A stretch of DNA of 64,000 nt, from assembly GCF_035920445.1 (NCBI RefSeq), contig NZ_CP109162.1, positions 4,898,001 through 4,962,000 on the forward strand. Reading direction: 5' to 3'. Position 1 is the first letter of the stretch; the number at the start of each line of letters is the position of its first letter. Positions 22,135-38,068 of this stretch are shown here, piece after piece. The notes under the pieces are model-generated. The model saw nothing but the letters and a program-made list of their open reading frames with translations, ran no database searches and had not been told where the DNA came from. This DNA comes from Nocardia sp. NBC_01730 (GTDB taxonomy: Bacteria > Actinomycetota > Actinomycetes > Mycobacteriales > Mycobacteriaceae). A program made the position numbers and the translations under genes.

Positions 22135-23931
22135 TCAGCCGAGCAACTCGCGGGTGGCGGTGTGGATCGGTGCGGCGAGAACGGTTCCGGCCTTGCCCGA
22201 CTCGACGATGCGACCATGGTCCAGGACGAGGAGCCGGGAGCAGCGCTCGGCGACCAGGGCCATGTCGTGGGTGATAACCAGCAGGGCAGTGTCGCTTTCG
22301 GCGCGGATGCGGTCGAGCAGGGCCATGATCGAGGTGGCGGTGGCGTGGTCGAGGGCGGAGGTGATCTCGTCGCACAGCAGCACCGCGGGTTCGGCGGCGA
22401 GGGCCCTGGCCACCGCGATCCGTTGGCGTTGTCCACCGGAGAGTTCGTGTGGGTAGCGGGCGCTTAGGTCCGCGGAGAGTTCCACCGAGGCCAGGAGTTC
22501 GGTGATACGCCGGGGCAGTTGGTGTTTCGGGACGCGTCCGATGCGGCGCAGTGGACGGCCGAGGGTTTGCGCCACCGTCCGGCGCGGGTTGAGAGCCGAC
22601 CTCGGATTCTGGGTGACCAGCTGAATACCGCCTGCGCCATAGGGGATTCGTCGTCCCCGTCCCACCGAAATCGGCGCGTCTCGCAGGTAGAGATATCCGG
22701 TCGCGCAGCGGTGCAGACCCGCGACAACGCGGGCCAAGGTGGTCTTGCCCGCGCCGGACGCGCCGACCACCGCAAGGGCCGCACCCCCGAACAGCTCGAA
22801 GTCGATGTCGGCGAGCACCTGATGACCATCGACCGACGCGCTGATTCCCCGTGCACGCAAGACGAATTCGTCCCGGGCGGGTCCGTCCTCCAGCACGGCG
22901 TCGGACGAGTCGCGGTGACCGTTCCACGCGGGCTCAGCGGCCCGTTCTCGGTCGAATTCGATCGAACCAGGTTCCACCGGGTACGCCACATCAGCCCGCA
23001 TTCGACCGCCGCTCACCACCGACTGCACGTCGGCGCCGATCCGCCCATGATCGCCCGTTTCCGAATCGGCGTCGAGTAATACTGCCGCCTCGGAAGCGCG
23101 CTCGGGCGGCGCGATGGTCGGTGAACCAGGTGCGAATTCGTCGGAGTCACCCGAGGCCATGGTCGGCATGCCGATTTCGGTTCGCAGCTTCGCCGCCCGG
23201 CCCTCGGCGGACAGGTCGTTCGAGGGTGCTTGTGCCAGTGGCGGCCAGGTAGCAGGGGCCGTCGGTAGGTCGGCGACGGCGCCGAGTTCGACGACCTGGT
23301 CGGCGATCGAGTGCACGAGGGTGGTGTCGTGGCCGGACAGCAGGATCGCCGCCGAACGTCGTCGCGCGATGTCGACCAGCTGTCCCGCGATGTCGGTACG
23401 CAGCGCGCCGTGTAGCCCGGCGAGTGGTTCATCCAGCACCAATACACCGGTGTCGCGGATCAGCGCCCTGGCGAGGGCGACTCGACGCTGCTGTCCCCCG
23501 GAGAGCTCGCCAGGGCGGCGGCGCAGGTATTCCGGCGAAAGGCCGACCAGCGCCAGCGTGTCGACCAGGGTGGCCGTGGCGGCGTCCGGCGCGACCTCGC
23601 GCAGGAGGACGCGCACCCGCAGCAGCGGGTTCAGCGCGGACCCGGGGTCCTGCCCGACATAGGCGATGTGTCGACGCCGGAACCGCTGTAGTGCCTCGCG
23701 ATTCAGTGCGAACACGTCGTTTCCGGCGACCGATACCGACCCCGTAGCCCGGGATGTGGCGGACGGCAGCCGGCCGAGCAGTGCGCGCATCAGCGTGGTC
23801 TTGCCCGACCCGGACGGCCCGGTGAGCGCGGTGATCGTGCCCGCAGGTATCCGGAAGGTCGCTGGGCCGGCCAACTCCTCCCCGTTCGAACCAAGCACCG
23901 TCAGCCCGTCGACCAGGACGAGATCACTCAT
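22135..23931 (-). CDS. Fused double ATPase of a peptide/nickel-type ABC importer
   Basis: 598 residues from ATG 23931. It carries two complete ABC domains. Domain 1: Walker A GPSGSGKTTL, signature LSGGQQRRVALARAL, Walker B VLVLDEPLAGL. Domain 2 (about residue 365 on): Walker A GASGAGKTTLARVV, signature LSGGQRQRIAVARAL, Walker B VLLCDEITSAL and the switch His in THDMALV. The linker of about 110 residues is acidic and low-complexity. It corresponds to DppD+DppF fused. It is the last gene of the SBP-permease-permease-ATPase operon and energises the importer. Confidence 0.9.
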   Translation of the reverse strand: MSDLVLVDGLTVLGSNGEELAGPATFRIPAGTITALTGPSGSGKTTLMRALLGRLPSATSRATGSVSVAGNDVFALNREALQRFRRRHIAYVGQDPGSALNPLLRVRVLLREVAPDAATATLVDTLALVGLSPEYLRRRPGELSGGQQRRVALARALIRDTGVLVLDEPLAGLHGALRTDIAGQLVDIARRRSAAILLSGHDTTLVHSIADQVVELGAVADLPTAPATWPPLAQAPSNDLSAEGRAAKLRTEIGMPTMASGDSDEFAPGSPTIAPPERASEAAVLLDADSETGDHGRIGADVQSVVSGGRMRADVAYPVEPGSIEFDRERAAEPAWNGHRDSSDAVLEDGPARDEFVLRARGISASVDGHQVLADIDFELFGGAALAVVGASGAGKTTLARVVAGLHRCATGYLYLRDAPISVGRGRRIPYGAGGIQLVTQNPRSALNPRRTVAQTLGRPLRRIGRVPKHQLPRRITELLASVELSADLSARYPHELSGGQRQRIAVARALAAEPAVLLCDEITSALDHATATSIMALLDRIRAESDTALLVITHDMALVAERCSRLLVLDHGRIVESGKAGTVLAAPIHTATRELLG

Positions 23932-24009
23932 TCTCCGCACCCCGCCGAGGCGGCCGACGACCGCCGGACCGGTATGAATCAACCCTTGACGCAACGGCGA
24001 GGACGAGGT

Positions 24010-24849
24010 TCATGACAATGTCGATGTCCGCTCCTCTCGCCCGAACGCGGACACCGCCAGGTTCACACTCACCGCGACGATCGCGATCACCAGACTCGGT
24101 GCCAGCACCGCCCAGGGGTTGAGCAGCAACCCGGAGGCGTTGTCGCGCACCATGACCGCCCAGTTGCTCGCCCCCAGCGTGGTGGGCAACTGCAGAAAGG
24201 ACGCGGTGCTCACCAGGTAGACCGCCGCGACGAAACGCAGGCCGAGCTGGGTCGCCAGCACGGCACGCAGATTCGGAATCACTTCCCGGAAAACCAGATA
24301 GGGCAGCGACTCACCGCCGGCCTCCGCGCTTTCCACATACCCCGATGCCGCTACCCCGGCGGCCGCAGCCGCGAAAACCCGCCCACAGTAAGGGACCCCG
24401 AACAGCAGCGCCACGACGATCAGCCCATAGGCGCCCGCGTCCGGCCAGGAAGTCAGCACCAGCAGGATGCCGAGCACCGCGGGCAGCAGGATGATGAAGT
24501 CGGTGCCCAGTTCGATCACGGCCCCGATCCGCGGGCGCAGCGCGACGACCGCGCCGAGCACGCACGACAACCCGGTCACCAGCACCGCGATGACCGCCGA
24601 CAGCAGCAGCAATCCCCAACCGCCGTACAGCAGCTGGCTGACCACATCCCTGCCGAGCCGATCGGTGCCGAGCCACGCGCCGTCGCCGGGATCGCCGAAC
24701 GGAATACCCACTGGCTCCTCGGCCGGGCGCGGCGCCAGCGTCGGCCCGAGTACCGCGAGCACAATGACCAGCACGGCGGGCGCGATACTCACCATGCCGC
24801 GCCGTCGCTTCGGCAGACCGGCAATGTCGATCGAACGCAGACCGGTCAT
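24010..24849 (-). CDS. ABC importer permease, DppC-like
   Basis: 279 residues from ATG 24849, which overlaps the upstream permease stop (ATGA). The N-terminus shows the DppC-type first helix followed by the periplasmic motif WLGTDRLGRDVVSQLLYGG. The EAA-like loop ESLPYLVFREVIPNLRAVLA contacts the ATPase. Five to six membrane helices. It pairs with the DppB-like permease at 24846 to form the channel of the oligopeptide/metal-chelate importer. Confidence 0.9.
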   Translation of the reverse strand: MTGLRSIDIAGLPKRRRGMVSIAPAVLVIVLAVLGPTLAPRPAEEPVGIPFGDPGDGAWLGTDRLGRDVVSQLLYGGWGLLLLSAVIAVLVTGLSCVLGAVVALRPRIGAVIELGTDFIILLPAVLGILLVLTSWPDAGAYGLIVVALLFGVPYCGRVFAAAAAGVAASGYVESAEAGGESLPYLVFREVIPNLRAVLATQLGLRFVAAVYLVSTASFLQLPTTLGASNWAVMVRDNASGLLLNPWAVLAPSLVIAIVAVSVNLAVSAFGREERTSTLS

Positions 24850-25775
24850 CGGCTTCCCCGCAATGACCAGGCCCGAATACCGTCGGCGATAGCGAGCATG
24901 CCCATGATGACCACACCGGACAGCGCGACCACCGCGGCGACCACCGCGGTGTCGCGGTCGCCGACCGAACCGGCCAGCACCGCCCCGAGGCCCGGGTAGT
25001 TGAAGATGGTCTCCACCACCAGGGAGCCACCGAGCAGCATCCCGACCGTGGTGGCGAAACTGGCGACGATCGTCGGCAGTGCGAACGGCAGGACATGCCG
25101 CGCGAGAACCGTGCGGGTCGAAAGCCCGTCCAGCACCACGCTTTCCACGTGCGGCGCCTGTGCCGCGTCGGCCAGCGCGGCGCGCACGACCCGGGTGTTC
25201 CAGCCGATCTGCGGCACCGCCAGCGCGAGCACCGGCAGCACCAGCATGTCGGGACGGGACGGGAACCCGGAACGGCCGGTGATGGTGACCGCGGGTAGCC
25301 AGCCGAGCGCCAGCGCGAACACCAGAATCAGCAAGGTCGCGACGACGAACTCGGGAACCGCCACCGCCATCGTCGTCACGGGTTGCAACAGCCGCGTCGA
25401 GGCGCTGCCCTGCCGCACCGCCCACCACGCGCCGAGCGCCAGCGACGCCAGCACGGTCACCGCGAGGGCCGTTCCGCCGAGCAGCAGCGTCGGCGGGAAC
25501 TTGTCGACCAGCAATTCGTTGACCGAACGCCCCCGTGCGGTACGGCCGAAATCACCGGCCGCGACGCCGGATATCCAGTTCCAGAAGCGCACCGCCAGCG
25601 GTCGGTCCACACCGAGTTCGTGCTCCTTGGCCGCGATCTGTTCCGGCGTGGCCTCGCGACCGAGGACGGCGCGGGCGGTGTTGCCCGGCAGCATGTCCAC
25701 GGCCACGAACACAGCCGCCAGCAGCGTCACCAGGAGGACGATGCGCCGGACTAGGAGTCGCGCGAAGGAGATCAC
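24846..25775 (-). CDS. ABC importer permease, DppB-like
   Basis: 309 residues. The N-terminal helix and following domain are typical of DppB/OppB (LGVDRPLAVRFWNWISGVAA, GDFGRTARGRSVNELLVDKF), and the EAA loop reads GLSTRTVLARHVLPFALPTI. Six membrane helices. The start overlaps the binding-protein stop by 4 bp, and the stop overlaps the next permease start, so all are translationally coupled under the iron box at 27352. Confidence 0.9.
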   Translation of the reverse strand: MISFARLLVRRIVLLVTLLAAVFVAVDMLPGNTARAVLGREATPEQIAAKEHELGVDRPLAVRFWNWISGVAAGDFGRTARGRSVNELLVDKFPPTLLLGGTALAVTVLASLALGAWWAVRQGSASTRLLQPVTTMAVAVPEFVVATLLILVFALALGWLPAVTITGRSGFPSRPDMLVLPVLALAVPQIGWNTRVVRAALADAAQAPHVESVVLDGLSTRTVLARHVLPFALPTIVASFATTVGMLLGGSLVVETIFNYPGLGAVLAGSVGDRDTAVVAAVVALSGVVIMGMLAIADGIRAWSLRGSR

Positions 25776-27289
25776 TCCGCCAGCCAGGTCCGTTCCAGCT
25801 GGACCCTGGCGAACCCGCCGAGCGTGGGCAGGTCACGCACCCGGGTGGTGGCGATGTCGATGCCGTCGGCCATCCCCCACACCAGGTACCCGCCGCGGTC
25901 GTATTGGATGCGCTGCACGTCATGACTGGCCGCCACGTACTCCGAGTCTGTGTGCGCGCCAAGCGCTTTGACCGTCGCGGCATCGAATGCGGCGTCTTTG
26001 AAATCGGTTTCGTTGCGGTTGGATCCGTTGGCCATCAGCTTGCTCGCGAAGAACAACATGGAGTCGTTGGTGCCCCAGGAGACCGTGTAGAGCGGGGCTT
26101 TCAGCCAGGTCTGGTCGTAGAAGGTGTTGGGCTCCTGGGGGACGACACCGAGCCGCACGCCGATCTCGGCGAGTTGGGTGGCGATGACCTTCGCCGATTC
26201 GACCTCGCCGGGCGCTTCAGCCTTGGTGAGCAGCGGATAGCTGCGTCCAGTGTCGAAATTCGCGTCGCGTAGCAGGGCTTTCGCGCGATCGACATCCTGG
26301 GTGCGCTGGGCGATCGAGGTGTCGTAATCCGGGTCGCCGGTGCCCAGAATGTCGTTGGCGACCTTGCCGTACCCGGAATGCACCTGGGTGACCAGGGCCT
26401 TGCGGTCGACGCCGAGCCGCAGCGCGGTACGAACCCGCACATCGGCGAAGGGCCCGTCAGAAGTGCGCATGGCTACCCCGACCATGGTGTCGTTCGCGCG
26501 ACGCACCACCGCCAGATCGCCGCGCCCCTCCGCGGCGCGGCCCGCGATGGCGCCGACATTGGAGGCGAGGTCGATCTGTCCGCCGAGCACGGCGTTGCCC
26601 AGCGCGGTCACGCTTTCGAACATGGTGACCTCGATCGCGTCCAGCAGCGGTGGTGTGCCGTGCCACTGGTCGTTGCGCACCAGCCGCGCGTTGCCGCCCT
26701 GATAGGACTCCAGGCGGAACGGTCCGGTGCCGACGGCCGTCGTGAAGTCCGCGGTGTCCTTCTTGACGGTGAAGGTCATCAGTCGGACCAGTAGCGGAAG
26801 CTGGGTGTTCGGCTCGGGCACCGCGAGCACCACCCGATCCGGCCCGTCGGTGGTGATACCCTCCACAGCCACCGGCATTTTCGATGCCCCGCCGACCGTC
26901 CGCAGTCGGCGCAGCGACCACGCCACGTCCTCCGAGGTGACCGGCGTCCCGTCGTGGAAGGTCGCGCCGTCGGCCAGGGTGAAGCTCCAGCGGCGCCGAT
27001 CGGCGTCCGGCTCCCACCGGGTGGCGAGGCGCGGTGCGACATTCGGGTCGGCTCCCGGCACGGTCAAGGCGTCGTAGACCAGCGAGGTGATCAGGAAGTC
27101 GCTGTCGTTGCTGAGGTTGGCGTGCGGATCACGTTCGATGCGCGCCGAGGTGCCGAGCGCACCGACCCGCAGCGTGCCGCCGCGCCGGGCCGGTCCGGAC
27201 GCCTCCGCGCCGTCGGAACACGCCGCGACCAGTAGTACCGCTCCGACCCCGAGACTCGACTGCAAAAGTTGCCGTCGATTCAAACCCAT
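25772..27289 (-). CDS. Family 5 substrate-binding lipoprotein of an ABC importer
   Basis: 505 residues. The N-terminus has NRRQLL (possible Tat motif) and a lipobox LVAAC (Cys24). The SBP_bac_5 fold is recognisable by IERDPHANLSNDSDFLITSL, LADGATFHDGTPVTSEDVAW and VRTALRLGVDRKALVTQV. Family 5 proteins bind peptides, nickel complexes and metal-opine or aminopolycarboxylate chelates. First gene of the leftward operon, with an iron box 63 bp upstream and divergent from a siderophore-type biosynthetic operon. I infer that it binds the ferric form of that product. Confidence 0.9.
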   Translation of the reverse strand: MGLNRRQLLQSSLGVGAVLLVAACSDGAEASGPARRGGTLRVGALGTSARIERDPHANLSNDSDFLITSLVYDALTVPGADPNVAPRLATRWEPDADRRRWSFTLADGATFHDGTPVTSEDVAWSLRRLRTVGGASKMPVAVEGITTDGPDRVVLAVPEPNTQLPLLVRLMTFTVKKDTADFTTAVGTGPFRLESYQGGNARLVRNDQWHGTPPLLDAIEVTMFESVTALGNAVLGGQIDLASNVGAIAGRAAEGRGDLAVVRRANDTMVGVAMRTSDGPFADVRVRTALRLGVDRKALVTQVHSGYGKVANDILGTGDPDYDTSIAQRTQDVDRAKALLRDANFDTGRSYPLLTKAEAPGEVESAKVIATQLAEIGVRLGVVPQEPNTFYDQTWLKAPLYTVSWGTNDSMLFFASKLMANGSNRNETDFKDAAFDAATVKALGAHTDSEYVAASHDVQRIQYDRGGYLVWGMADGIDIATTRVRDLPTLGGFARVQLERTWLAE

Positions 27290-27351
27290 TGCGTTGCCCT
27301 CTTTCTGGACGAATTCCGTACCCTACCGGCATAATTTTCGGGTACGGATCA

Positions 27352-27370
27352 GGACAGGCTAGCCTAATGA
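27352..27370 (-). promoter_or_regulatory. IdeR/DtxR iron box of the importer operon
   Basis: Read on the minus strand, TCATTAGGCTAGCCTGTCC matches the core TTAGGTTAGGCTAACCTAA strongly in its left half and centre. It is 63 bp upstream of the binding-protein start. IdeR/DtxR represses such promoters when iron is sufficient. Confidence 0.6.
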
Positions 27371-27516
27371 GGCGGAAGACTCGCCGATACCGCCATGAAA
27401 CGGCAGCGACAGGGCAGACCCGCCCGCAAAGCCACAAAACAGCTCCACCGAGACCATCGGCGGCCTAACCTCGGTCGCATCGCAGTTATGCAATTCGGCT
27501 ATATTTACGGGCGCGC

Positions 27517-27535
27517 TTAGGTAAGCCTTGCTTGG
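27517..27535 (+). promoter_or_regulatory. IdeR/DtxR iron box of the biosynthetic operon
   Basis: TTAGGTAAGCCTTGCTTGG resembles TTAGGTTAGGCTAACCTAA in both halves (TTAGGT, AGCCT, then CTT). It is 77 bp upstream of the hydroxylase start. A weaker half-site (GGCCTAACCTC) lies at 27463-27473. The remainder of the 322-bp divergent gap carries the promoters and no gene. Confidence 0.65.
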
Positions 27536-27611
27536 CTCTGCGAGAACAGCTAACTTCGCAGATCGAATCGTCACCCTGCTTTTCGAACCTATGCGAAGAA
27601 GGGAATCCCCG

Positions 27612-28754
27612 GTGAAAAGCGTTCTCTCCGAACGTAAGACGCTTCACCCACAAGATATCGAACGACGCGAGCTCCCCGCGGCCGCAGGCCAGGCGGTGCG
27701 CGAACTCGCCAGAGAAATATCCACCACACTCGACGAGACCGACGCCGCGCGAACGCTCACCCATCCGGCGCTGATCGAGCAGATCGATGCCAGGGTCGCG
27801 GAGCTGCCCCCCGAGGTGCGCCATGCCGTGCGCCCGCCCGCCACCGCGCACGGCGCGACCATCGTCAGCTGCCTTCCCTTGACCGACAAGGAATTCGGCC
27901 CTACCCCGCCGAGCTGGCGCGAGGCCGCGCGATGGAGCGGCGAGTCGGTGACTCGCGCGAACTCGTTCCAGTTCGACCTCGTCATGCTGCTGCTCGCACG
28001 CAGCGCGGGTGAGCCGTTCGGCTGGCGAGGCCAGCAGGACGGACGGCTGGTCAACAACATCGTCCCGGCGGCGGGGCACGAGCACGAGCAGTCCGGCGCC
28101 AGCAGCAAGACGCTGCTGAGCCCGCACACCGAGGACGCGTTCCATCCGGAGCGGGCGCACCTGCTGATGCTCGGCTGTCTGCGCAACCCGGATCTGGTCG
28201 GTACCACGGTGTCGTCGGTGCGCCGGGTCGAGCTCTCCGCCGAACAGCGCGGGCTGCTGAGCACACCCATCCTGCCGATCCTGCCCGACGTCTCGTACGG
28301 TGACGGGCACGAAAAGTATTCGGCCACACCGCTACCCACCCTCTGGAGTGCGGCGGGCCCGGACGAGCAGACCCTCCGCTACGACCCGGCATACACCCCG
28401 CTCGACGACGCCGCGCCCGAGTTCCGTTCGGCCTACGCACGACTCACCGCGGAGCTGGAGCGCGTCTGCGTGACCGCCGCGCTCGCCCCCGGCGAGGTGC
28501 TGCTGGTGGACAACGACGTTGCCGTGCACGGACGCGTGCCGTTCACCGCACGCTACGACGGCACCGATCGGTGGCTGAAGCGGGTGAACATCCGTCTCCC
28601 GGAACGACAGCGCCGGGCCGCGGAAGCCGACGAGAATGGTTACGGGCAACGGATCGTCGCCCCGTTCCGAGCGGCAGGCACCCTGCCGCTCGAGCGTGGC
28701 ACTCATGAGTGGGATGCAGTACCGAATGATCGAGGAACCCTTGAGCACTCGTGA
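27612..28754 (+). CDS. Fe(II)/2-oxoglutarate-dependent amino-acid hydroxylase (VioC/AsnO/clavaminate synthase-like)
   Basis: 380 residues from GTG 27612 (AAGGGA eight bases upstream); an ATG at 27591 is the alternative. Iron ligands appear as His172 and Glu174 in SPHTEDAFH, the HxE form of the VioC/AsnO group, with the distal His306 in NDVAVHGR and a 2-oxoglutarate-binding Arg at 320 or 324 (GTDRWLKRV). Relatives hydroxylate the beta carbon of free arginine, asparagine or similar amino acids. First gene of an iron-boxed operon with diaminopropionate-type enzymes; beta-hydroxyarginine or beta-hydroxyaspartate is the likely product, which would give an iron-binding hydroxy-acid unit. Confidence 0.88.
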   Translation: MKSVLSERKTLHPQDIERRELPAAAGQAVRELAREISTTLDETDAARTLTHPALIEQIDARVAELPPEVRHAVRPPATAHGATIVSCLPLTDKEFGPTPPSWREAARWSGESVTRANSFQFDLVMLLLARSAGEPFGWRGQQDGRLVNNIVPAAGHEHEQSGASSKTLLSPHTEDAFHPERAHLLMLGCLRNPDLVGTTVSSVRRVELSAEQRGLLSTPILPILPDVSYGDGHEKYSATPLPTLWSAAGPDEQTLRYDPAYTPLDDAAPEFRSAYARLTAELERVCVTAALAPGEVLLVDNDVAVHGRVPFTARYDGTDRWLKRVNIRLPERQRRAAEADENGYGQRIVAPFRAAGTLPLERGTHEWDAVPNDRGTLEHS

Positions 28755-29726
28755 CCGAAGCACACCCCTGCGGGTGTTGAGCCGCAGCGACCTGGCCGAC
28801 GTGCCCATCACGCCCGCCGATGTCGTGCGCGCCGTAGAAGAGGCGTATCTGGCGTTCGCCGCGGGTGATTCGGACAATCCGCGCAAGCTCAGCGTCGCGA
28901 ACCCAGACGGCTGGTCGGTCGCTTACGCCATGCTCGGCCGGGACGGCCGTAGGCGGGTGGTGGCGATGAAGACCTCCTACAAGTTCGACCCCGGCCACGA
29001 CCGCAGCACCAAGCGGTACTACACGACCATCACGCTCTACGACGACACCACCGGTGCGCCGATCGCGATGATGGACTGCGCCAGGGTCGGCGCGCTGCGA
29101 ACGCCCGCGGTGTCGGCGCTGCTGGTGCGCGAGACCGCGCGCCGCGGAGCCGAGAGCGTGCTGCTGATCGGCACCGGAACGCAGGGCCGCAACGCCCTTC
29201 CGCACCTGCTCGCCGCGAATCCGCAGCTGCGCAAACTGATGCTGTACGGAACGCACCCGGAGGGACTGGAAGCCGTTGGCCGCCAGCTCGCCGAGCATTA
29301 CCCGCACGCCTTGCTCGAGACGGTGCAGGATCCGCGCGCCGCGGCGGCGACCGCCGACGTCGTGCTGGCCACCGCGGGCCCAGGTACCGAGGTCGCGCTC
29401 GAATCCGATGATCTCGCACCGGGTTCGGTGGCGGTGCTGGTCGGCTACGGACTCGCGCCCTCGACACTGGTCCACGCCGATCGTGTGATCGCGACCAGCG
29501 CCGAGCAGATGGCACTGACCGGCACCGACATGGTGGGTCCGGACGGGACGCTGCGCTCAGTGGACGCGGAGCTGCCGCGGATCCTGAGCAGGCGCGCGGT
29601 CGCGCGGCGCACGGACGACGAGCGCATCTTCGTCTACAACAGCGGGCTGGTGCTCACCGACATCGCCGTAGCCCATGCCCTGGCGGAGCGGGCCATCGCG
29701 GAGGGCCGTGGCACGGAGGTGCCCCT

Positions 29727-29736
<10 letters not shown>
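28726..29736 (+). CDS. SbnB-like dehydrogenase (ornithine cyclodeaminase / mu-crystallin family)
   Basis: 336 residues from ATG 28726; the TTG at 28741 has a better ribosome site (GAGGA) and may be the true start. It overlaps the hydroxylase stop. The Rossmann motif is VLLIGTGTQGRNAL, and the active-site segment is MKTSYKF with MMDCARVGALRTPAVSALL. In staphyloferrin B synthesis SbnB oxidises and hydrolyses N-(1-amino-1-carboxyl-2-ethyl)-glutamate to diaminopropionate. Here it could do that or run in the reductive direction to join an amine to a 2-oxo acid; the direction is inference. Confidence 0.87.
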
Positions 29737-31199
<1,463 letters not shown>

Positions 31200-31232
31200 T
31201 CCCATGACCGACACGAACGAGGAGTTCTACCC

Positions 31233-32267
31233 ATGCCGCTCGTCACGCGTGTGACGGATCTGATCGGCCGCACGCCACTGTTCGAGCTCGCGGCCACCTC
31301 GACCGGTACCCGGCTACTGCTCAAGCTGGAGCAGTTCAACCCGACCGGCGCGGCCAAGATCAGGATGGCGCGCGAAATGGTGCTCGATGCCGAGCGCCGC
31401 GGTTTGCTGGCCAGTGGCGGGCATATCATCGAATCCACATCCGGGAACACCGGGCTCGGCCTGGCTGTGGTGGCTGCCGAACGTGGGTATCGCTTCACCG
31501 CGGTGGTCGACCACCACGCATGTAAGGACAAACTGCGCGCGATGCGAGCAATGGGCGCGGAACTGGTGTTCGTCGCCGATGCGGACGACGACACCCTGGC
31601 CACTTCGGCGCGGGAGGATCTGGCCGAGGCGATGGCGGCCGAGCGGGACGATGCGTATTTCACCGAGCAGCACAACAACGACGCCAACGCGGTGGGCTAC
31701 TACGCGGTGGCCGAGGAATTGCTGGAGGACGTCGAGCGGGTCGATATCCTGCTGTCGGCGGTGGGCACCGGCGGTTCCCTGTTCGGCACCGCGACCCGGC
31801 TGCGCCAGCTCGGCTGCACGCCCCATGTGATCGGTGTCGAGCCGATCGGTTCGATCGCGTTCGGTGGACCCGGCGGGCCGTACTGGCAGTCCGGCACCGG
31901 CACGCCGCCGGGCGCCACCATCGGTACCGCCGTGGACTACGCGCTGCTCGACGAGGGTGTGAAGGTCTCCGACGTGGCGGCATTCGCGACCGCGCGCGCG
32001 GTGGCGAACAAGCTCGGCCTGATGATCGGCGGGTCTGCGGGGGGTTCGGTGCATGCCGCGCTCGCCAGGCTCGAGAAGTTCCCGCCCGGTTCCACCGTGG
32101 TCACTATCGTCTGCGACGGCGGGGAGAAGTATCTGGACACCGTCTTCGACGACGACTGGATGAGCGCCCGCGACCTGCTCGACGCCGACGCCGAACACGA
32201 AGTGCTGGACATGCTGGAGCGCTACACCCCCACCACCCGACGTGGCGGGCTCGTGGAGGCTCGATGA
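31233..32267 (+). CDS. SbnA-like PLP enzyme (cysteine synthase family; O-phosphoserine beta-replacement)
   Basis: 344 residues, GAGGAG upstream of ATG 31233. Fold-type II motifs: PLP lysine Lys42 in NPTGAAKIRMA, the substrate loop STSGNTGLGLAVV, the glycine loop in LSAVGTGGSLFGTA, and IGGSAGGSVHAAL. SbnA and relatives exchange the phosphate of O-phosphoserine for an amino-acid amine. Paired with SbnB-like and SbnH-like neighbours, this supplies a diaminopropionate-derived diamine. A true O-acetylserine sulfhydrylase is less likely given the operon. Its last 10 bp form the start of a tandem repeat. Confidence 0.88.
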   Translation: MPLVTRVTDLIGRTPLFELAATSTGTRLLLKLEQFNPTGAAKIRMAREMVLDAERRGLLASGGHIIESTSGNTGLGLAVVAAERGYRFTAVVDHHACKDKLRAMRAMGAELVFVADADDDTLATSAREDLAEAMAAERDDAYFTEQHNNDANAVGYYAVAEELLEDVERVDILLSAVGTGGSLFGTATRLRQLGCTPHVIGVEPIGSIAFGGPGGPYWQSGTGTPPGATIGTAVDYALLDEGVKVSDVAAFATARAVANKLGLMIGGSAGGSVHAALARLEKFPPGSTVVTIVCDGGEKYLDTVFDDDWMSARDLLDADAEHEVLDMLERYTPTTRRGGLVEAR

Positions 32268-32396
32268 GACATAATCGCGCAGCGCTCATCGAGCCGACGG
32301 GGTGCGGGAACCCCCGCAGAACACAGGGCTCGATGAGACATAATCGCGCAGCGCTCATCGAGCCGACGGGGTGCGGGAACCCCCGCAGAACACAGG
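32258..32396. repeat. Two perfect 69-bp tandem repeats with internal hairpins
   Basis: Copies at 32258-32326 and 32327-32395 appear identical, followed by a short partial third. Each contains GGCTCGATGAG pairing with CTCATCGAGCC (11 bp) and a second stem TGCGGG/CCCGCA. The first copy overlaps the SbnA-like stop. The array fills the gap before the exporter and could attenuate transcription or stabilise mRNA. Confidence 0.9.
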
Positions 32397-32508
32397 GTGC
32401 GATGAGTCACCATCGTGTGGCGCCCTCGGTCTGTGTGATCTCGCGCGCGCTGGTAATTCCTGTGACACCGGGCTCGACGATGAGCCCATCGCCCGCCGAG
32501 GAGAGCTG

Positions 32509-33912
32509 GTGAACCTGTCGAGCTTCCGCGCCGACGGACGGCAACTGACCGCGCTCGCGACCCCGATCGCCCTCACCCAGCTCGCGCAGATCGCGGTCTC
32601 TACGACCAACATCGCACTGATGGGCACGCTCGGCGTGCGGCAGGTGGCCGCGGGCGGTTTGGCGATCGTGCTGTTCAACCAGATCCGCACCATGTGCGTC
32701 GGGCTGATCACCGCGAGCGGCAACCAGATCGCCACCGCGGTGAGCGCCGCGGGAAAGCGCGGCGAGGCGCCGGATCGAGAGATCCGGGACCTGTTGCGGT
32801 CGAGCTTCCTGATCGCCACGCTCGCCGGAATCGCCGGTGGAGTGGTGCTGATCGGGCTCGGCTGGGCGCTGCGCCTGCTCGGGCAGGACCCCGGCGTACT
32901 CGCCGACGCGCGACCGCTGATGACGGCGCTCGCGCCGGGTCTGTTGCCCTGCCTGTGGTTCCAGGTGTTGCGCCAATACACCGTCGGCATGCAGCGCCCG
33001 CAGGCACTGCTGCTGGTGACGCTCGGGTCGGTCGTGTTGAATCTGCTGCTCGCGCTCGGCTTCATCCACGGCAAGGCCGGGCTGCCCGCGCTGGGACTCA
33101 CCGGCATCGGTGTCTCGACCTCGCTGGTCTTCCTGATCACCTTCGGTGTGTTCTGGGCGATGGTGTGGCGCGACGACCAACTCGGCCGCACCCTCCCGAT
33201 ACGTCCGCTGCCGGTGCGACCGGCCACGGTCCGCGCCGAACTGAAGCTGGGCGCGCCGATCGCGCTCACCTACGGCTCCGAGGCGGGGATGTTCTCGGCG
33301 CTGGCCCTCGTGATGGGCAGCATCGGACCTGCCGCGCTGGCCGCGCACAACGTCGTGTACCAGATCATCTACATCGTCTTCCAGGTCGCGATCGGCCTCT
33401 CGCACGGTGCGTCGATCCTGGTCAGCCACGCCGTCGCCCGCGACGAATTCGGGCAAGCCCGCGCACTTGCCCGGCTCGCGCTGCGGCATACAGCGGTGGT
33501 CGCGGCCGTGACCGGCGCTGTGTATGTGATCGCCCCGGATCTGGTGCTGCGCCCCTTCCTGGATTCGTCCGACACCGACACCATCCGAATCGCGCATACC
33601 CTGCTGCTGATCGGGATCGTGCTGCAGTTTTTCGACGCCGCCCAGAACATCGGCACCGGTCTGCTGCGTGGGCTCAAAGCGACCAACGCGGGCTTCCGGC
33701 TCTCGCTGATCGGCTACTGGGGTGTCGGTCTGCCTGTCGCCCTGCTGCTCGCCTTCCCGGTCGGTCTCGGCGCCGCGGGCGTGTGGTGGGGGCTCACCGC
33801 GGGCCTGGCCACCACTGCGATCCTGATGCTCCGCCGCTACTTCGCGCTGCTCGACAGCAAGGAGCGCGACCGGCCGCGCCTGCTCCCGGAAACCCTCGCC
33901 GCCCCGAGCTGA
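32509..33912 (+). CDS. MATE-family efflux transporter
   Basis: 467 residues from GTG 32509 (GAGGAG upstream). Twelve membrane helices in two MatE halves; the first half starts ALATPIALTQLAQIAVSTTN and contains the family QxATxxSAAG-type sequence (NQIATAVSAAGK), the second starts LGAPIALTYGSEAGMFSALA. MATE pumps export cationic or zwitterionic small molecules using H+ or Na+. It lies 241 bp after the SbnA-like gene on the same strand, so it is the probable exporter of the operon product. Confidence 0.9.
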   Translation: MNLSSFRADGRQLTALATPIALTQLAQIAVSTTNIALMGTLGVRQVAAGGLAIVLFNQIRTMCVGLITASGNQIATAVSAAGKRGEAPDREIRDLLRSSFLIATLAGIAGGVVLIGLGWALRLLGQDPGVLADARPLMTALAPGLLPCLWFQVLRQYTVGMQRPQALLLVTLGSVVLNLLLALGFIHGKAGLPALGLTGIGVSTSLVFLITFGVFWAMVWRDDQLGRTLPIRPLPVRPATVRAELKLGAPIALTYGSEAGMFSALALVMGSIGPAALAAHNVVYQIIYIVFQVAIGLSHGASILVSHAVARDEFGQARALARLALRHTAVVAAVTGAVYVIAPDLVLRPFLDSSDTDTIRIAHTLLLIGIVLQFFDAAQNIGTGLLRGLKATNAGFRLSLIGYWGVGLPVALLLAFPVGLGAAGVWWGLTAGLATTAILMLRRYFALLDSKERDRPRLLPETLAAPS

Positions 33913-33916
33913 TCGG

Positions 33917-34558
33917 GTACCTGCCGCGGCATCTGCGGTCGTGGCACAGGCGCCCGCCCGGCTGCTCGTCGCCGGCATGGGCGACGCGCTTGCCACCTGG
34001 TTCGAGGCACGCACGTGCAGCGTGGCGCAGGTGCGCAATATGCGTGGCGGCGCGACGACGCGCGGCGCAGGCGCACTCGCCGAACTCTGCTACCACACGC
34101 TGCTCGCCGACGGGCCGCAGGCGCTGACCGCGGTACGCAACCACACCGTCACTCCGGCGCTGGAACGCATCGTCGAGGCCAACACACTGCTGTCGGGACT
34201 CGGGTTCGAATCGTCGGGTCTGGCCGCCGCGCATGCCGTGCACAACGGCCTCACCGCCGCCGCGTGCACGCGCACACGCCTGCACGGCGAGAAGGTCGCC
34301 TTCGGCGTCCTCACCCAGCTGGTGCTGGAAGGGGCGCCCGCGGCCGAGTTCGACACGGTGCTCGATTTCTGCGCCGAGGTCGGACTGCCGACCACCTTTG
34401 CCGCGCTCGGCTTGGACGATCCCGACCAGGAAACGGTCACCACGATCGCAGCCCGCGCGACCGCCCCTGGTGAAACGATCCACAACGAGCCGTTCACCGT
34501 GGACGTTCCGATGGTGGTCGACGCGCTGCGCACCGCCGACGCGCTCGGCAGGCGGTGA
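33917..34558 (+). pseudogene. gldA: Truncated glycerol dehydrogenase (C-terminal half only)
   Basis: The frame encodes about 206 residues from a GTG at 33941, and homology begins just upstream. VVAQAPARLLVAGMGDALAT and WFEARTC are gldA sequence from the start of the helical domain. The metal ligands HNGLTAA and HGEKVAFGVL are present. The N-terminal NAD-binding half (about 160 residues) is absent, so it cannot be a working dehydrogenase unless re-used. It abuts the MATE stop, which suggests that the siderophore segment replaced its 5' half. Confidence 0.75.
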
Positions 34559-37570: not shown

Positions 37571-37589
37571 TTAGGATAGCCTCACCATA
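37571..37589 (+). promoter_or_regulatory. IdeR/DtxR iron box of the flavodoxin gene
   Basis: TTAGGATAGCCTCACCATA matches TTAGGTTAGGCTAACCTAA at most core positions (TTAGG, TAG, CT, ACC). It lies 24 bp before the flavodoxin start, overlapping the probable promoter. Confidence 0.6.
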
Positions 37590-37612
37590 TAGGCCTGGAA
37601 GGGGTGGCGCTG

Positions 37613-38068
37613 GTGCGCGTCGTCGTTTTGTTCGGAACCGAGATGGGGACCGCGGAGACCGCCGCGGACAGCATCGCCGACGAGCTCTCGTCGGCGCACG
37701 AGGTCTCGGTCTGCGACATGACCGACTTCGACGTCGACGACCTCGACGTGCACGACTTCTACATCGTGGTCTGCTCGACCTACGGCGACGGCGATCTGCC
37801 GACCGGCGCCGAACCGTTCTCCGACGCGCTCGACCGGCGCCCACCGCAGCTGACCGGGCTGCGGTTCGCCGTGTTCGGGCTCGGCGACACCGTGTACGGC
37901 GACACCTTCAACCGCGGCAGCGAAATCATCGCCCAGAAGCTCATCGCATGCGGGGCCGCCCAGGTCGGCGAGCACGGGCGGCACGACGCCTCGACCGAGG
38001 TCCGCGCCGAGGACATGGCCCGAGAGTGGGCCGCGACGCTCGACATCCCCGCACTCGTCTCGGCCTGA
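37613..38068 (+). CDS. Flavodoxin-domain protein (MioC-like), probably iron-starvation induced
   Basis: 151 residues from GTG 37613, with GGAAGGGG upstream; GTG 37604 is less well placed. The FMN phosphate loop is VVLFGTEMGTAETAAD. The isoalloxazine loops are VCSTYGDGDLPTGAEPFSDA and VFGLGDTVYGDTFNRGSEII. It carries electrons on FMN and can replace iron-sulfur ferredoxin when iron is scarce, which fits the iron box just upstream. It may also donate electrons for ferric-siderophore reduction. Confidence 0.88.
   Translation: MRVVVLFGTEMGTAETAADSIADELSSAHEVSVCDMTDFDVDDLDVHDFYIVVCSTYGDGDLPTGAEPFSDALDRRPPQLTGLRFAVFGLGDTVYGDTFNRGSEIIAQKLIACGAAQVGEHGRHDASTEVRAEDMAREWAATLDIPALVSA

Follow-up and report, generated by a model that had tools for sequence, protein, structure and literature searches.

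A predicted EDHA aminopolycarboxylate siderophore cluster in Nocardia sp. NBC_01730 and its patchy importer across the genus

What is made by two divergent operons in which a hydroxylase, a dehydrogenase, a decarboxylase and a pyridoxal 5'-phosphate (PLP)-dependent synthase are joined by an importer and an exporter? The question is raised by nine genes at positions 22135-33912 of a 64,000-nucleotide stretch of Nocardia sp. NBC_01730 (the window, positions 4898001-4962000 of an 8.68-Mb single-contig genome). An original prediction, made from the sequence alone, read them as a cluster for the siderophore ethylenediaminesuccinic acid hydroxyarginine (EDHA). This assignment held gene by gene against two named strains linked to EDHA in print, Streptomyces scabiei 87.22 and Streptomyces sp. 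MA5143a, each of which has counterparts of all nine genes, arranged and oriented alike, within ~11 kb. We conclude that the locus is very probably an EDHA aminopolycarboxylate siderophore cluster of a Nocardia.

The two operons diverge from a shared intergenic stretch at 27290-27611: the leftward one comprises four genes (family-5 binding lipoprotein, two permeases and fused double ATPase) and the rightward one five (VioC/GntD-like hydroxylase, SbnB-like protein of the OCD family, LysA/Y4yA-like decarboxylase, SbnA-like protein of the PALP family and MATE exporter). In the following list, the box score is the number of positions of 19 that agree with a degenerate IdeR consensus.

22135-23994, minus strand: fused double ATPase of an ATP-binding cassette (ABC) importer, two ABC_tran stretches; start TTG 23994 or ATG 23931
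24010-24894, minus strand: permease of the DppC/NikC type (BPD_transp_1); start uncertain
24846-25775, minus strand: permease of the DppB/NikB type (BPD_transp_1 and its N-terminal domain)
25772-27289, minus strand: family-5 solute-binding lipoprotein (SBP_bac_5, 2.6e-66), presumed ferri-EDHA binder
27349-27367, unstranded: IdeR/DmdR-like box, importer side, TCAGGACAGGCTAGCCTAA, 15/19
27517-27535, unstranded: IdeR/DmdR-like box, biosynthesis side, TTAGGTAAGCCTTGCTTGG, 15/19, 95 bp before the hydroxylase start
27612-28754, plus strand: VioC/GntD-like Fe(II)/2-oxoglutarate hydroxylase (TauD; GntD and VioC models), presumed arginine hydroxylase
28726-29736, plus strand: SbnB-like dehydrogenase of the ornithine cyclodeaminase family (OCD_Mu_crystall, 2e-23); start inferred
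29727-31199, plus strand: PLP decarboxylase, LysA/Y4yA-like (Orn_Arg_deC_N, 2.2e-22); start uncertain, conserved part from ~29859
31233-32267, plus strand: SbnA-like PLP synthase (PALP, 4.9e-65; SbnA is the best model)
32371-33912, plus strand: MATE exporter (MatE, 1.6e-32)

Profile scans of the window proteins recovered every gene and family that the original prediction had named. The N terminus of the solute-binding protein (SBP) carries a twin-arginine motif (RRQLLQ) and a lipobox (VAAC), both judged by eye.

The reference strains came from a scan of named genomes that confirmed 163 loci, 80 of which were kept, among them those of S. scabiei 87.22 (L087) and MA5143a (L139). Identities are those of best aligned segments and are given as S. 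scabiei/MA5143a. They were highest for the SbnA-like protein (67/69%) and the OCD protein (60/62%), followed by the SBP (56/55%, the S. scabiei match spanning 99% of its length), the NikB-type permease (55/55%, spanning 90% in S. scabiei), the NikC-type permease (55/59%, spanning 79% in S. scabiei), the hydroxylase (53/51%), the decarboxylase (53/50%) and the MATE exporter (51/52%). With the ATPase, considered below, all nine genes were thus matched in the protein search against the EDHA cluster that had been proposed as a check. In the eight loci of the same genome compared, matching SbnA-like paralogs were 28-35% identical to the S. scabiei protein, versus 67% for the protein of the window. 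All nine genes (bit score above 80) were present in 58 of the 65 kept named loci of at least 20 kb; six of the remainder have the five rightward genes only, and one lacks the MATE gene. In a search with the decarboxylase, all organisms named among the 120 matches listed, of 1225, were Nocardia, the nearest being 88% identical.

The link between these genes and EDHA is already in print. Excerpts of PMC8914351 associate an 11-kb S. scabiei cluster, scab_5231-5311, with EDHA. Those of PMC10702961 treat MA5143a as the EDHA reference, with genes AesA-D, and, citing Spohn et al. 2018 for the report of EDHA in Nocardia brasiliensis, list as carriers S. scabies, S. avermitilis, two corynebacteria and N. 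brasiliensis. AesA-D would correspond to the hydroxylase, OCD, decarboxylase and SbnA-like genes. In the portion available of a 2025 preprint (PMC11888242), the EDHA family BGC0002567 comprises 1,450 windows, 328 of them from Nocardia. A 2024 paper describes in N. mangyaensis a DmdR1-controlled cluster for an aminopolycarboxylic acid metallophore that includes a MATE gene, the name EDHA being absent from its excerpts (PMC10920908). The novelty implied by the original prediction therefore falls away: since both the cluster and its presence in Nocardia have been published (in excerpts of PMC8914351, PMC11888242 and PMC10702961), the EDHA system is already known, its cluster is ordinary for Nocardia, and no new class is needed. 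The window resembles the reference clusters (those of S. scabiei 87.22 and MA5143a, and BGC0002567) in genes, gene order and IdeR-like boxes upstream of the hydroxylase gene. It differs from them in its 50-69% identity and in a (PT)n insert in its decarboxylase, and many Nocardia lack an ortholog of its SBP. The insert is encoded by a CCGACA hexamer repeated 7.8 times at 30930-30976 and is absent from the four other orthologs compared.

We next consider what the enzymes themselves suggest. The best NCBIfam models for the hydroxylase were GntD (235.8 bits) and VioC (203.6 bits, under the TIGR03946 equivalog cut-off of 418.6 bits); the OCD protein scored 99.6 bits with the SbnB model, the decarboxylase 111.4 bits with LysA and the PALP protein 239.8 bits with SbnA. 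The "-like" labels given earlier were apt, as the equivalog cut-offs for VioC, SbnA, SbnB and LysA were all unreached. Because the MA5143a enzymes match the same four models and likewise stay under the cut-offs, low scores are a mark of this enzyme family and no objection to the assignment. The hydroxylase metal triad (H172, E174 and H306) is kept in 100 of 100 hydroxylase-bearing loci, the PALP lysine in all 93 loci whose alignment covers it, and the lysine block of the decarboxylase in all 95 such loci. Two further hydroxylase positions, counted as VioC Q137 and D268 along the chain from the triad in VioC numbering rather than by alignment to VioC itself, are invariant in the same 100 loci; we take these two VioC residues to be arginine contacts. 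Among solved structures, the best relative of the hydroxylase is an L-arginine beta-hydroxylase (4m23). As the original prediction had stated, no ligase accompanies the enzymes: none of the families reported for the ten scanned proteins is that of a nonribosomal peptide synthetase (NRPS), an NRPS-independent siderophore (NIS) synthetase or an ATP-grasp enzyme, the listing for some of these proteins covering the best 25 NCBIfam families only.

Several points weigh against the EDHA assignment. The ATPase is 50/55% identical to its S. scabiei and MA5143a counterparts over only 39/37% of its length, and with best segments no more than 50-69% identical, the product could still be a congener. The PALP protein of MA5143a scores higher with the cystathionine beta-synthase model (233.6 bits) than with SbnA (231.4 bits), and at the hydroxylase residue counted as VioC D270, 97 of the 100 loci have Ala and three have Asp. 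The S. scabiei paper itself, in the excerpts at hand, admits a lack of metabolomic data on EDHA (PMC8914351). Other counts speak against the promoter boxes: a search of the window for the IdeR pattern with at most three mismatches found neither of them, only a site at 37571, and in 2,000 first-order shuffles of the 322-bp intergenic stretch the best site reached at least 13 in 311 and at least 14 in 56, while two sites of at least 12 occurred in 442. Because of these counts, the promoter boxes are only suggestive when judged on the window alone, where three 19-mers reach 15/19.

Compared across loci, the putative boxes upstream of the hydroxylase gene become convincing. For this comparison we used 100 fetched loci with the hydroxylase gene (L057-L156) and took the 480 bp upstream of that gene. 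A score of at least 15 was reached at 196 of the 48,000 positions in these upstream regions versus 21 of 1,813,181 positions elsewhere in the loci; the counts are not independent, the loci being related and in some cases paired copies from a single genome. Of the 100 loci, 99 have one or more boxes of at least 15/19 ahead of the hydroxylase gene, 77 have at least two, and two or more are present in 75 of the 84 loci with an adjacent SBP gene. The biosynthesis-side site lies at -94 to -99 in the main-cluster loci of Nocardia (with a score of only 12 in L070) and at -136 to -141 in second-type clusters (L061-L063). The two IdeR-like boxes that the original prediction saw in the divergent promoter region, each scoring 15/19, lie in a region that holds at least one such box in 99 of 100 loci, and it is these conserved boxes that support the predicted iron control of both operons.

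Of the other readings, the one that survives best is that the cluster makes a close congener of EDHA, with the same scaffold chemistry and another basic amino acid (such as enduracididine, capreomycidine or lysine) or another keto acid arm; we regard this as unlikely. It would account for the preference of the window hydroxylase for the model of GntD, an enduracididine hydroxylase, over VioC, for the presence of CmnC among the solved relatives of the enzyme, and for its identity of only 51-53% to the enzymes of both reference strains. However, the preference for GntD does not separate a congener from EDHA, because the MA5143a hydroxylase scores likewise (GntD, 250.6 bits; VioC, 213.7 bits). 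No enduracididine or capreomycidine synthase is found among the nine genes, the residues counted as VioC Q137 and D268 do not vary across the 100 loci, and excerpts of PMC10702961 name N. brasiliensis among EDHA carriers.

Far less probable is a zincophore cluster under Zur control of the kind that makes [S,S]-ethylenediaminedisuccinic acid ([S,S]-EDDS). Related aes genes direct the synthesis of EDDS, the cluster of Amycolatopsis japonica uses SbnA/SbnB/decarboxylase chemistry related to that of the window, and family-5 importers also carry metal-opine complexes. The EDDS cluster is zinc regulated through Zur and its product has two succinate arms; to our knowledge, it has no arginine hydroxylase. 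In the window, by contrast, the first gene of the rightward operon encodes a VioC/GntD-like hydroxylase, and the upstream boxes, present in 99 of 100 loci, are IdeR-like. A cluster of primary metabolism (cysteine synthase, ornithine cyclodeaminase and diaminopimelate decarboxylase with a peptide importer) would fit the family names alone and deserves almost no credence given a nine-gene order common to EDHA-linked loci, conserved iron boxes and scores far under the cut-offs of the primary enzymes.

Two other known systems share parts with the EDHA cluster. The staphyloferrin B sbn locus has SbnA-, SbnB- and SbnH-like enzymes, as the window does, and the window proteins stay under the SbnA and SbnB cut-offs; the NIS synthetase family (IucA/IucC) of staphyloferrin B was unreported for the ten proteins scanned. 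The staphylopine cnt system resembles the window in its family-5 SBP and ABC importer and, by our interpretation, in opine-type reductive amination, and the window differs in its MATE exporter and in a CntA score of 57.3 bits against a cut-off of 800. The nicotianamine synthase-like CntL family of staphylopine was likewise unreported for those ten proteins.

If the locus is an EDHA cluster, it could work as follows. Under iron starvation, IdeR would leave both boxes and both divergent operons would be expressed, as the conserved boxes suggest. The hydroxylase, judging by its conserved residues and its family, would act on arginine or on the arginine arm. The SbnA-like enzyme may join a unit derived from O-phosphoserine to the amine of an amino acid, the LysA-like enzyme may decarboxylate the coupled unit to an ethylenediamine, and reductive addition of a keto acid by the SbnB-like enzyme, in the fashion of an opine dehydrogenase, may supply the second arm. 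These three steps are modeled on the chemistry of the sbn pathway; their order and the position hydroxylated are our proposal, since Arg-first and Asp-first assembly cannot be told apart from the sequence. The MATE protein would export the chelator, and the linked family-5 SBP and ABC transporter would retrieve its iron complex. The strain would accordingly be a predicted EDHA producer.

With the cluster itself known, the remaining interest of the locus is comparative: genus-wide retention with a patchy importer. The hydroxylase gene is present in 147 of 148 Nocardia genomes, this one counted. Among the best matches listed (that of G397 without a figure), the lowest identities were 61% (G507) and 52% (G506), the latter match sitting in a second-type cluster (L063). 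A family-wide sample gave the hydroxylase in 26 of 151 genomes (ten Nocardia, five of other genera at 48-60% and eleven at 29-35%), and a phylum sample gave it in 13 of 396 (three Nocardia, two others at 52-54% and eight at 29-40%). The SBP is less constant. With ten candidates scored per genome and draft assemblies among the sample, 104 of the 148 Nocardia genomes had a match at 1e-60, four of these being only 34-37% identical, and 100 had a match of at least 55%, five of these at 56-57%. One genome (G407) has such a match without the hydroxylase, and 48 of the 147 hydroxylase-bearing genomes lack an SBP ortholog of at least 55%.

The five rightward genes were present in all five genomes examined that lack the ortholog (L067, L068, L070, L071 and L072), where a box upstream of the rightward operon remains. 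In other genomes, such as G050, the ortholog lies apart from the operon. Three single-contig genomes without the ortholog contain 29 family-5 SBP genes, the best 32% identical to that of the window and nine without a match; no site of at least 14/19 was found near these 29 genes within the fetched 4-kb loci, a range too short to catch a box that stands farther up an operon. No replacement ABC importer was found among ten open frames that flank the operon at six loci where no SBP gene adjoins it (the above five and L076, whose genome has the SBP elsewhere). Those frames encode three POT-family transporters, two MazG proteins, TerD, a helicase, TetR, DUF7373 and one protein without a family; the POT genes at the SBP-less loci lie beyond enolase. 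The genome with L076 (G446) shows no OCD gene in that main cluster and has a second cluster (L061) with all five genes, 52-69% identical to those of the window, a level also seen in Streptomyces.

We tentatively suggest, as a possibility on which we would not yet lean, that nearly all Nocardia keep the EDHA hydroxylase and, by extension, the operon for biosynthesis and export, and that the roughly one-third of species without the cognate SBP secrete a chelator for which they have no known importer, pointing to unrecognized uptake outside family 5 or to another purpose. EDHA may be perhaps the most general siderophore trait of Nocardia, and the SBP-less genomes raise the concrete question of how the iron complex is recovered. 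No report of the genus-wide retention of the hydroxylase or of the missing SBP was found in the literature searched, which excludes most subscription journals. A 2025 survey, whose abstract gives its size as 263 genomes, reports nocobactin NA in 45 genomes from 5 species (PMC12153302); because the genome samples differ, the two distributions are not directly comparable. The available portion of its main text contains no word beginning with aminopolycarbox-.

Three further features were noted in the same genome. The best IdeR-like site of the window (37571-37589, 16/19) lies 14 bp before the GTG start codon of a flavodoxin-like gene (37604-38068), which is plausibly a second iron-regulated gene. 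Elsewhere (L186:7609-13041, ~417.6-423.0 kb), a compact row encodes a SufS-like aminotransferase, a protein with a C-terminal copper chaperone-like (HMA) domain, a decarboxylase (32% identical to that of S. scabiei) and a PALP-rhodanese fusion (34% identical to the PALP protein of the window and 31% to that of S. scabiei). A scan of this second locus for iron boxes and Zur-like sites found no match to the Zur pattern and one weak iron box of 14/19; the row perhaps makes another small metal-binding compound. Directly 3' of the MATE gene, 33941-34558 encodes only the C-terminal part (profile positions 158-361) of a glycerol dehydrogenase-type protein, and in a relative (L065) the matching place is covered by an open frame of 481 codons; the stretch in the window looks like a decayed neighbor gene.

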